From Bradyrhizobium lablabi (lineage in GTDB: Bacteria > Pseudomonadota > Alphaproteobacteria > Rhizobiales > Xanthobacteraceae): DNA of 64,000 bases. Numbering within the stretch: position 1 is the stretch's first letter; each line of letters opens with the position of its first letter. Positions 16,123-20,821 of the stretch are shown here, piece by piece. The stretch is taken from NCBI RefSeq assembly GCF_900141755.1, contig NZ_LT670844.1:4030001-4094000 (forward strand). Reading direction: 5' to 3'. A program made the position numbers and the translations under genes. Under the pieces are notes generated by a model, which was not told where the DNA came from, did not search any database, and saw nothing but the letters and a program-made list of their open reading frames with translations.

Positions 16123-16159
16123 AAGCTCCCTTCAACAGAACGAACTTGCGGGCCCACAC

Positions 16160-17107
16160 ATGAAATTGAACGTCGCCGTCCAGATGGACCCCATCGCGCG
16201 CATCAACATCCGCGGCGATTCGACCTTCGCGCTGCTATTGGAGGCGCAGAAGCGCGGCCATGGGCTGTCTTATTACACCCCCGACAATCTCTCGCTGCGC
16301 GGCGACGAGCTGGTAGCTCCGATCCAGTTGCTCACCGTGCGCGACGAGCCCGGCGATTATTTCACCCTCGGCGAACCGCGCCGCCAGCCGCTTTCCGCCT
16401 TCGACGTCATCCTGCTGCGGCAGGACCCGCCATTCGATCTCGCCTACATCACCTCGACGCATCTTTTGGAACGGCTTCACCCGAAGACGCTGGTCGTGAA
16501 CGACCCCGCAAGCGTCCGCAACGCGCCGGAAAAACTGTTCGTGATGAATTTCCCGCAGCTGATGCCGCCGACCTTGATCTCGCGCGACCTCGACGAGATC
16601 AATTCGTTCCGCGACGAGCACGGCGCGGTGGTGATGAAGCCGCTGCACGGCCATGGCGGCGCCGCGGTGTTTCGGATCATGCCGCAGGACATGAATTTCG
16701 GTTCGCTGTTCGACATGTTTTCGGTGACGTTTCGCGAGCCCTGGGTGATCCAGCGCTTTCTTCCCGAGGTCAAGCACGGCGACAAGCGCATCATCCTGGT
16801 CGACGGCGAATTCGCCGGCGCCGTCAACCGCGTGCCGGCGGCCGATGATCTGCGCTCCAACATGGTGCGCGGCGGCGCCGCGCAATCAACCGAACTGACC
16901 GATCGCGAGCGCGAAATCTGCACGACCATCGGACCAAGCTTGCGCGAGCGCGGGCTGTTGTTCGTCGGCATCGACGTCATCGACGGCAACCTCACCGAGA
17001 TCAACGTCACCTCGCCGACCGGCATCCGCGCCATCGCCCGGCTCGGCGGCCCGGATGTCGCGGCGAAGATCTGGGACGCGATCGAGAAGAAGCGGAGCGG
17101 AAAATAA
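16160..17107 (+). CDS. gshB: Glutathione synthetase
   Basis: ATP-grasp ligase joining gamma-glutamylcysteine and glycine. 315 residues, the normal length. N-terminal [34 protein letters not shown] is characteristic. [21 protein letters not shown] and [17 protein letters not shown] carry the ATP-grasp nucleotide residues, and [16 protein letters not shown] residues near the C-terminus ([18 protein letters not shown]) bind Mg. ATG at 16160 chosen over longer open frame. 37 bp after yraN on the same strand; the rsmI-yraN-gshB order is typical of alphaproteobacteria. Confidence 0.98.
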
Positions 17108-18250: not shown

Positions 18251-18277
18251 CAGGGGCAGCCGGTGAGGCTGCCCCTG
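18251..18277 (+). terminator. Perfect 11-bp hairpin after the metallo-hydrolase gene
   Basis: CAGGGGCAGCC pairs perfectly with GGCTGCCCCTG around a 5-nt loop (GGTGA). A modest T-rich stretch (TTTTG) follows about 13 nt later. It begins 12 bp after the stop codon and separates this unit from the next, SOS-type promoter. Confidence 0.65.
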
Positions 18278-18293
18278 CACGGCCTTCAGTTTT

Positions 18294-18337
18294 GTTCACT
18301 AAATGTTCTTGCATTTGTCGCTGCCTTGGCCTACTCT
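18294..18337 (+). promoter_or_regulatory. LexA box and promoter of the leader-methyltransferase unit (copy of the comM promoter)
   Basis: GTTCACTAAATGTTC (18294-18308) fits the alphaproteobacterial LexA operator GTTC-N7-GTTC. Directly behind it are TTGCAT (18309-18314), a 17-bp spacer and TACTCT (18332-18337), a sigma-70-like promoter whose -35 abuts the operator. The layout is the same, base for base in spacing, as that in front of comM at 19218-19261. DNA-damage induction is inferred. Confidence 0.72.
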
Positions 18338-18358
18338 GAGTTGCAGGAGTTGGGCCGG

Positions 18359-18436
18359 ATGCAACCGCGAGTTCCAAGCGTCACCTTTGGGGAGATTGCA
18401 GCCCGCGTGGCCGGCCTAGAGGCAGGCCGAAGATGA
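18359..18436 (+). CDS. 25-codon leader peptide derived from the comM N-terminus
   Basis: ATG at 18359 follows AGGAG and opens a 25-codon frame starting MQPRVPSVTFGEIAAR, against MVARVSTVAFEGIEAR in ComM (8 of 16 identical). The distance from the LexA box to the ATG is 65 bp in both copies. The stop TGA (18434-18436) overlaps the ATG of the methyltransferase (18433-18435) as ATGA, so translation of the leader should couple to it. It is probably a degenerated duplicate of the comM 5' end rather than a functional domain. Confidence 0.65.
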   Translation: MQPRVPSVTFGEIAARVAGLEAGRR

Positions 18437-19179
18437 CGCTACGCCGCGTGCTGAAAAGTCTGACGCCTCCCATCATCGGCGATTTGCTTCATGGTGGGTG
18501 CCCCTATGTCTCCTGGTCAGCGGCCAGCGAAAGTGCTTCCTCCTATTCGGACCAGGCGCTCAACGCCTTCAAGGTCGCTCGCCGGATGCCAGGTTCCGTG
18601 GAGGGGGCGCTATTGCGCACCAATCTTCTGTACCTGATTGCGCTGGCGTGCGGGAAACCCGATCTGTCCATCGTCGATTTTGGCGGCTCGACGGGAGAGT
18701 TGGGCGCAGACTTCCTCATTGCCTTTCCTGACGCCACCTACACCGTCGTCGAGAACCCCGCGATGGTTGCGATGATGAAAGGTCAGGGTCCGGTCGGCTT
18801 TGCGTGCACTCCACCGGCCGAATGCGACATCTTTTTCTCCAGCGGTGCACTCCAGTACATCGAGAACCCAACCGAGATTCTCACCGTTGCCTTTACCTCG
18901 GCACGGCGCTCCGTCGTCCTCATGCGCAACTCGTTTGCGGACGAAGACATCTATCGCGTCCAACGCTCGAGGCTCTTCGCTAACGGAAGCGGCCCAATTC
19001 CGGAAGGCTACAAGGACCGCACGGTGCGGTATCCTCATCGAACGATGAAGGAAGGTTCGATCGTCGAGATCGCGCGCCAGTATGGCTTCCGCTGCGTCAC
19101 GCGGATTGCAGAGGCCGACACGGACGCCCTGCCATACGCAGGAAAGGTCTACGGCACGCAGTTGGTCTTCCTGCGTTAG
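18433..19179 (+). CDS. TIGR04325-type putative SAM-dependent methyltransferase
   Basis: 248 residues resembling the TIGR04325 (LIC12133) methyltransferase family, which I recall mainly from surface-polysaccharide loci. Motif I region is SIVDFGGSTGELGADFLIAFP, then YTVVENPAMVAMMK, and CDIFFSSGALQYIENP replaces the usual acidic post-motif. The ATG overlaps the stop of a 25-codon leader under an SOS-type promoter. No polysaccharide genes are nearby, so the gene looks like an insertion between the metallo-hydrolase gene and comM. The substrate is unknown. G+C looks somewhat lower than in neighbours, by eye only. Confidence 0.75.
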   Translation: MTLRRVLKSLTPPIIGDLLHGGCPYVSWSAASESASSYSDQALNAFKVARRMPGSVEGALLRTNLLYLIALACGKPDLSIVDFGGSTGELGADFLIAFPDATYTVVENPAMVAMMKGQGPVGFACTPPAECDIFFSSGALQYIENPTEILTVAFTSARRSVVLMRNSFADEDIYRVQRSRLFANGSGPIPEGYKDRTVRYPHRTMKEGSIVEIARQYGFRCVTRIAEADTDALPYAGKVYGTQLVFLR

Positions 19180-19217
19180 GCCTTCACGCCGGAGGCCCGT
19201 CGGAGCGCTCGACGCCT

Positions 19218-19261
19218 GTTCCCTTAATGTTCTTGCGGTCGCCTGCGCTTTCCGCTACCCT
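19218..19261 (+). promoter_or_regulatory. LexA box and promoter of comM
   Basis: GTTCCCTTAATGTTC (19218-19232) matches GTTC-N7-GTTC. It is followed by TTGCGG (19233-19238), a 17-bp spacer and TACCCT (19256-19261). The comM ATG is 22 bp further. comM belongs to the LexA regulon in several alphaproteobacteria as I recall, which fits. Confidence 0.75.
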
Positions 19262-19282
19262 CGATTGCAGCAGAGGGGCGGA

Positions 19283-20821
19283 ATGGTCGCGCGGGTTTCC
19301 ACGGTAGCTTTTGAGGGGATCGAAGCCCGCGCCGTCGACGTGCAGGTGCAGGTCGCGCCTGGGCTACCGGCGTTTGCGATCGTCGGCCTGCCGGACAAGG
19401 CGGTGTCGGAAGCCCGCGAGCGGGTCCGTTCGGCGCTGATCGCCTCTGGACTGGCGCTGCCCGCGCGCCGCATCACCGTCAATCTGGCGCCGGCCGATTT
19501 GCCGAAGGAAGGCAGCCATTACGATCTCCCGATCGCGCTCGGCCTGATGGCGGCGATCGGCGCGATACCGCCCGACGCGCTTTCCGGTTTTACGGTACTC
19601 GGTGAACTCGGCCTCGATGGATCGATCGCGCCGGTTGCGGGCGTATTGCCGGCGGCGATCGGCGCCAATTCGCGCGACGAGGGCCTGATTTGCCCGGCGG
19701 CTTGCGGCGCGGAAGCGGCCTGGGCGAGCCCGGATATCCAGATCGTGGCGGCGAATTCGCTGATCCAGATCGCTAATCATTTTAGGGGCACGCAGGTGCT
19801 GTCGCGGCCACAGCCGAAAGTGCATGAGGCCGAGGCCAACCTCTTAGACCTGCGCGACATCAAGGGCCAGGAGAGTGCAAAACGCGCGCTCGAGATCGCA
19901 GCCGCCGGCGGGCATCATTTGCTGATGATCGGGTCGCCCGGCGCCGGCAAGTCGATGCTCGCCGCCCGGCTGCCCTCGATCCTGCCGCCGCTGTCGCCGT
20001 CGGAATTGCTCGAAGTATCAATGATCGCCTCCGTCGCCGGCGAGATCGAGGGCGGCGCGCTGACCGCGCGGCGGCCGTTCCGCGCCCCCCATCATTCCGC
20101 CAGCATGGCGGCGCTCACCGGCGGCGGCATGCGCGCCAAGCCGGGCGAGATTTCGCTGGCCCATCAGGGCGTCCTGTTCCTCGACGAATTGCCGGAGTTC
20201 GATCCCCGCGTGCTGGATTCGCTGCGCCAGCCGCTCGAAAACGGCGAGGTCGCGGTGTCACGTGCCAATCATCGCGTCACGTATCCGGCGCGTTTCATGC
20301 TGGTCGCCGCGATGAATCCGTGCCGCTGCGGCCATGCCTATGAGCCCGGCTATTCCTGCAGGCGCGGCCGCATCGAACGCTGCACGGGCGATTATCAGGC
20401 GCGCATTTCGGGCCCGCTGATGGACCGCATCGATCTGCGGATCGAGGTGCCGGCGGTGACCGCTTCTGACCTGATCCTGCCGCCGCCGACGGAAGGCTCG
20501 GCAGAGGTGGCCGCGCGCGTTGCCGCCGCGCGCGACGTGCAGCTGGCGCGTTATGCTGCGGCCGGCCTGCCGCATATCCGCACCAACGCGGAAGCCCCCG
20601 CCTCGGTGCTGGAGACGATCGCGCAACCGGACGCGCAGGGCCAAAAGCTCCTGCGCGACGCCGCCGAAACCATGCGGCTGTCGGCGCGCGGTTATCACCG
20701 CGTGCTGCGCGTCGCCCGCACGCTCGCCGACCTCGACGGTGCCGAAAAAATCGGCCGGCTGCATCTCGCCGAAGCTTTGTCGTATCGCGCGCTCGCCGAC
20801 GATGTCAGGCGCGCGGCCTGA
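19283..20821 (+). CDS. comM: YifB/ComM family Mg-chelatase-like AAA+ ATPase
   Basis: 512 residues. ComM is a hexameric helicase that promotes branch migration during integration of transforming DNA. N-terminal ChlI-like domain (MVARVSTVAFEGIEARAVDVQVQ...GLPAFAIVGLPDKAVSEARERV), then the AAA+ module with Walker A GSPGAGKSMLAARLPSILPPL, Walker B GVLFLDELPEF, and the C-terminal Mg-chelatase domain including a Cys cluster (NPCRCGHAYEPGYSCRRG). The frame is open upstream; ATG 19283 is supported by the ribosome-binding GAGGGG and by alignment to the duplicated leader. Probably LexA-regulated. Confidence 0.95.
   Translation: MVARVSTVAFEGIEARAVDVQVQVAPGLPAFAIVGLPDKAVSEARERVRSALIASGLALPARRITVNLAPADLPKEGSHYDLPIALGLMAAIGAIPPDALSGFTVLGELGLDGSIAPVAGVLPAAIGANSRDEGLICPAACGAEAAWASPDIQIVAANSLIQIANHFRGTQVLSRPQPKVHEAEANLLDLRDIKGQESAKRALEIAAAGGHHLLMIGSPGAGKSMLAARLPSILPPLSPSELLEVSMIASVAGEIEGGALTARRPFRAPHHSASMAALTGGGMRAKPGEISLAHQGVLFLDELPEFDPRVLDSLRQPLENGEVAVSRANHRVTYPARFMLVAAMNPCRCGHAYEPGYSCRRGRIERCTGDYQARISGPLMDRIDLRIEVPAVTASDLILPPPTEGSAEVAARVAAARDVQLARYAAAGLPHIRTNAEAPASVLETIAQPDAQGQKLLRDAAETMRLSARGYHRVLRVARTLADLDGAEKIGRLHLAEALSYRALADDVRRAA

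Follow-up and report, generated by a model that had tools for sequence, protein, structure and literature searches.

Two questions are raised by the comM locus studied here: why a methyltransferase gene next to comM lies directly behind what looks like a second comM promoter and start, and where this second 5' end came from. The DNA analysed, a stretch of 64,000 nucleotides referred to as the window, belongs to a genome (G000) that is assembled as a single contig of 7.9 Mb; all window features named below are on the plus strand. The gene at 16157..17107 (start codon approximate), gshB for glutathione synthetase, represents the ancestral upstream neighbour of comM. It is followed by a gene for an MBL-fold hydrolase (PF00753, 17261..18238) and by a hairpin (18252..18276, fold z-score -4.58). 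A terminator-like site was predicted at this hairpin (18265-18286; 2.1 such sites are expected by chance in the scan), which is thus a likely terminator that would isolate the methyltransferase unit. Behind it are a putative LexA box (18294..18308), a -35 element TTGCAT (18309-18314) and, after 17 nt, a -10 element TACTCT (18332-18337; together 18309..18337), a leader ORF of 25 codons that resembles a degenerate comM N-terminus (18359..18436) and the gene for a class I SAM methyltransferase of 248 amino acids (18433..19179). The methyltransferase stop is 38 bp away from the next box, with weak hairpins only in between, and read-through into comM is possible. The comM promoter (19218..19261) consists of a LexA box (19218-19232), a -35 (19233-19238) and a -10 element (19256-19261), and is followed by a complete comM (19283..20821), whose product is a YifB family ATPase with a full-length match to TIGR00368 (519.4 bits, cut-off 362.4).

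The initial annotation had described the upstream copy as a duplicate of the comM promoter and N-terminus and, indeed, the likeness was found to be real. From the GTTC-N7-GTTC box (GTTCACTAAATGTTC at 18294, GTTCCCTTAATGTTC at 19218) to the ATG both sites measure 65 bp, 43 of which are identical without gaps, and 32 of 48 bases agree across the first 16 codons; from the box through codon 16, 75 of 113 positions are those of the comM 5' end. TTGC, 17 nt and TAC-CT follow immediately 3' of the box in both copies. None of 20,000 mononucleotide shuffles matched 43/65, 32/48 or 75/113, so the similarity is far above chance, and the next-best ungapped match of the 113-mer within the 64-kb window was 50/113. 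A sequence-only model (R1), made from 32 aligned comM 5' ends of the genus with the upstream copy excluded, recognised the upstream copy (18288-18410) with 46.1 bits (E = 2.6e-13) and the comM start of the window with 99.8 bits; 60 other comM loci (582,649 bp), which served as control, gave one match apiece at E <= 1. Two unrelated SOS promoters that merely look alike, by chance or convergence, are therefore an extremely improbable explanation, ruled out by the shuffles, the R1 score and the 60-locus control. In its favour is that the bare GTTC-N7-GTTC motif is not enriched in the host genome (190 occurrences vs 212 in the reversed control), but the ungapped likeness spans promoter, 5' UTR and coding start, and the independent model matched the corresponding copy of a second genome (G045) too. 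By these comparisons the two 5' ends are a true homologous pair and, since the bare box is at background level genome-wide, the case for SOS control rests on the homology to comM. The similarity holds up to codon 16, as annotated, but does not seem to stop there: comparison with G045 suggests that it continues as far as the methyltransferase ATG, to codon ~23. Thus, the upstream copy would comprise the promoter and ~23 codons (18294..18432), its extent beyond 18410 being deduced from the comparison with G045.

The position of the upstream copy is that of comM in relatives. Among eight loci of other families, four (L076, L079, L080 and L081) have a gshB that ends 120-190 bp 5' of comM, and in G041 this distance is 146 bp. 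In G045 the copy is located directly 3' of gshB, the ancestral place of comM. The MBL gene, in turn, is found directly 5' of comM in G053, G070 and G193, where 124, 109 and 108 nt, respectively, lie between its last codon and the comM ATG; the corresponding distance to the ATG of the upstream copy in the window is 123 nt, and the hairpin 3' of the MBL gene is present at the same place in all four. Since the upstream copy occupies the place of the comM start in relatives, it looks like a relic of comM's own 5' end left behind at the native site. The annotation had assumed that a duplicate of the comM 5' end came in together with the methyltransferase gene; the homology to the comM 5' end was borne out (75/113, R1), whereas an import of the duplicate fits less well with the location of the relic at the place of comM. 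Two copies that flank an insert are symmetrical, and therefore the decision which of them is the original rests on synteny. The interval between gshB and comM varied in the loci L135-L194 from ~1.2 kb to >6 kb with differing genes, as in a hotspot for islets.

Across the genus, R1 matched 255 of 265 genomes. A second match was found in four (G000, G117, G109 and G176), and the single match of G045 was the copy before its methyltransferase gene; a comM N-terminus was not found in this assembly, which is 89% complete. Therefore, a comM 5' end other than the start of an intact comM is present in 5 of 265 genomes, as counted with strict filters by which weak relics can be missed. The relic of G117 has one altered half-site and an insert in the spacer, that of G109 a changed -35 element and an insert ahead of the -10 element. 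G176 kept the promoter, but its relic, with an identity of 0.84 to its own comM, is young. In G109, a remnant of 67 positions is followed by an ORF of 296 amino acids, which looks GNAT-like by eye and is without a Pfam match, and then by a comM that is interrupted at codon ~215. Three candidates were not counted. A 25/27-base near-copy of its own box region is found in G015 (L043) ~1.26 kb upstream of comM, with nothing alike beyond these 27 bp and without an R1 match. The weak R1 match in G281 is its own truncated comM start; here (L130, position 4639, reversed strand) the similarity to comM breaks off a few codons in and is picked up again near codon 211, so that a functional comM may be missing from G281. 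A third match in G176 (E 0.02) was disregarded.

Interruptions of comM are common in the genus. In 60 loci (L135-L194), which were picked from the listed R1 matches, in most cases because of a long contig, and hence are not a random sample, comM similarity breaks off at codon ~32-35 in five (L135, L142, L152, L173 and L185), at codon ~215 in another five (L146, L150, L156, L172 and L182) and near codon 245 in one (L165). At least two comM pieces with a best piece at E ~1e-74 to 1e-81, as a split near codon 30 would give, were found in 14 of 265 genomes, eight of which were inspected directly; not included in this count are G025, which is split elsewhere (best piece 3e-83), G243 (2e-84) and G224 (1e-61) as well as G221, G119, G070, G073 and G104, which have one short piece only. 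The element in G019 encodes a large serine recombinase (PF00239, PF07508 and PF13408), to which the recombinases of G018 and G011 are 81-82% identical and that of G254 is distantly related (31-33%); in the short element of G012 a recombinase was not found. The locus of G018 (L069, 0 to +7.6 kb from comM) has interruptions near codons 33 and 215, each followed by a large serine recombinase gene. Regarding further genes in such elements, one in G012 (L071, 2998-4113, minus strand) matches the candidate anti-phage family PDC-M02B (E 3e-124), and one in G019 (L068, 5490-6059) gave a weak match to PADLOC 1TM-TIR (E 4.8e-8).

Upstream pieces of comM in G176 and G117 extend to codon ~33 and then continue with TTGTCAATGACAA or CTGTCAATGACAA; in G011, G012 and G181 the interrupted comM passes at this position into the element end (T)GTCAATGACAA. 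Furthermore, a DUF3892 gene (assigned by Pfam on the G117 copy) is common to the islets of G176 and G117 and, on the opposite strand, to the element of G019, and in both G176 and G117 a complete comM is located downstream of the pieces. These pieces are read as scars of an element that would once have interrupted comM before an intact comM was restored. In G053 (L142), comM codons 30-60 are preserved as a fragment that is flanked by gshB and the MBL gene (-1421 to -1329 from comM), apparently a mirror-image scar, and its present comM is cut again near codon 35. The hallmarks of a serine-recombinase scar, an end at codon ~33 joined to an element end, are thus found in G176 and G117 and are missing from the window: its relic stops ten codons before the integration point, at codon ~23, and neither an element end motif nor a recombinase nor a convincing further comM piece was detected within the window.

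The gene that now follows the relic is rare. In line with the annotation, nearly all relatives lack it: a full-length methyltransferase gene is present in 2 of 265 genus genomes, G000 and G045, whose proteins are 77% identical, and G063 has a partial match (32%). A comM 5' relic stands directly 5' of the gene in both genomes. In G045 the methyltransferase ATG is in frame at the position of comM codon 24, in the window the frame is shifted by indels; since the junction between relic and gene coincides with the methyltransferase start in both, it points to one origin. Comparison of the window gene with that of G045 gave a dN/dS of 0.187, which indicates purifying selection and argues for a gene in use. 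A search of 5.8 billion proteins returned 32 matches including the window's own; homologs P0002-P0008, known from protein matches alone, are 73-81% identical. In a drawn sample of 391 genomes of the family the gene was found only in the host genome, and G045 was not seen in that listing; among plasmids one partial match (30%) was obtained. The protein fitted no anti-phage family in a PADLOC search.

The leader peptide shows a different picture. Its 25 codons were annotated correctly, with a TGA (18434-18436) that overlaps the methyltransferase ATG (18433-18435), but its conservation as a translationally coupled leader did not hold: the ORF is broken in G045, the sole other genome of 265 with a close copy of the methyltransferase, and the codon-position pattern of comM is lost in the window. 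Differences between leader and comM at codon positions 1/2/3 amount to 4/5/7, compared to 26/27/191 in a set of 31 further comM genes (Fisher p = 0.004; the rows are not independent). By this pattern, the leader is not maintained as comM coding sequence.

In contrast to the reading frame, the promoter before the methyltransferase gene is apparently intact and of the SOS type, in line with the annotation: box, -35, -10 and 17-nt spacing are all present. The host encodes LexA (TIGR00498, 184.9 bits, cut-off 110.95), a GTTC-N7-GTTC box is located ~130 bp upstream of lexA, and in 32 of 34 genus comM genes such a box is no more than 110 bp away from the start. The box is present in the relic at 18294-18308 as well as in that of G045, and both methyltransferase relics keep the TTG, a TAC-containing -10 element and the spacing of 17 nt that is also found before comM. 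Preferential conservation of the promoter was not detected, neither in the window relic (19 of 23 conserved promoter positions vs 30 of 42 coding positions; p = 0.25) nor in the relic of G045 (18/23 vs 33/42; p = 0.64); the counts for relics outside the window derive from automatic, gapped alignments and are approximate. A value favouring the promoter in G109 (p = 0.0004) was discarded because the promoter of that relic is cut by an insert. That the promoter is kept in the methyltransferase relics and damaged in G117 and G109 is suggestive only. A generic sigma-70 scan found no consensus promoter at the relic. From the homology to comM we infer that the methyltransferase gene is under LexA control on a relic comM promoter, and predict that it is damage-inducible.

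How could this arrangement have arisen? The simplest account, in a genus in which comM was repeatedly interrupted and sometimes regained, would be that foreign DNA severed comM from its 5' end at the native site behind the MBL gene and the hairpin, and that downstream of it a complete comM, equipped with a promoter of its own, became established later. Judging from the scars in sister genomes, the event in the window would have been an interruption at the comM integration site and a subsequent trimming. The methyltransferase would now start exactly at the position of comM codon 24 and would be transcribed from the relic promoter, and since it would use this promoter, it is predicted to be LexA-repressed and induced by damage together with comM. 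We give slightly better than even chances to this reading, in which a 5' relic of comM, still at its native site, now drives the methyltransferase gene. A different course of events, in which a foreign comM 5' end already fused to the methyltransferase gene recombined into the resident comM 5' end, would yield the order 5' end, methyltransferase, 5' end, comM as the expected product of a single crossover. The cassette follows the MBL gene in the window and gshB in G045, and with two different contexts it may have moved; moreover, the relic is equally far from the comM of the window (0.66) and from the relic of G045 (0.65). Because of the symmetrical arrangement and the two contexts we keep this course as a rival, yet regard it as rather unlikely: relics in other genomes bear other DNA and element ends, the relic has its closest counterparts in comM genes of the genus (best 0.664) and is more distant from other families (best 0.552), and position and hairpin are those of the native comM site.

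Even if the 5' end is comM's own, it could be a dead relic, and the methyltransferase gene would then be free of LexA control and transcribed from elsewhere or barely at all. The equal conservation of promoter and coding positions and the outcome of the sigma-70 scan are in accordance with such a fossil. On the other hand, box, -35, -10 and spacing were retained in both methyltransferase relics despite an identity of 0.65, while the relics of G117 and G109 have inserts in their promoters; the upstream hairpin leaves the relic as the nearest promoter, and the dN/dS speaks for a gene in use. A fossil without function is, in our view, rather unlikely as well.

Some of this is familiar from other bacteria. 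For Caulobacter, comM is counted among the SOS genes in PMC3323433, and PMC6473078 does the same for C. crescentus and S. meliloti; the comM of the window resembles LexA-controlled comM of Alphaproteobacteria in the GTTC-N7-GTTC box that overlaps the -35 region, but differs in the second, decayed promoter copy before an unrelated gene. In Acinetobacter, comM is a repeated target of insertions, among them AbaR islands (PMC11472951); the same source raises regain of interrupted comM by recombination as a possibility, reports that salvage of comM is not commoner than chance and discusses as open why comM is hit so often and whether broken copies are regained. Unlike the Tn7-like and other elements described there, those of the present genus are serine-recombinase elements at comM codons ~33 and ~215, and relics are found beside a complete comM. 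Among the papers listed in literature searches, we recognised none on comM 5' relics or on serine-recombinase elements in rhizobial comM. That relics lie next to complete comM genes is evidence, at the level of the sequence, that in Bradyrhizobium a complete copy can succeed an interrupted comM, and such relics offer a means of counting cycles of interruption and restoration. A more general idea, which we put forward tentatively and consider somewhat doubtful, is that broken SOS genes pass their promoters to passengers: the severed comM 5' end would remain a working LexA promoter, and the adjacent methyltransferase gene would join the damage regulon. Relic 5' ends would in that case be a readable record of the interruption and repair of comM. 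The methyltransferase case suggests such an entry into the SOS regulon by promoter inheritance; if true, a gene entered the DNA-damage regulon without evolving a promoter, and this gene encodes a methyltransferase of a type that occurs in surface-sugar loci.

The annotation as TIGR04325-type was right with respect to relatedness: residues 24-225 match the family (E 6e-16), and a class I SAM methyltransferase fold was matched across most of the protein, as in other methyltransferases of this kind. With 58.4 bits the protein stays below the curated cut-off of 80 bits, however, and, unlike other members, it is encoded alone beside comM. A member from Leptospira is listed among LPS genes (PMC8055020). 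Two distant homologs were found in the genus, one encoded beside a glycosyltransferase gene (L011) and the other beside a gene for a DegT aminotransferase (L028), and the substrate of the methyltransferase is presumably a small molecule or a sugar.
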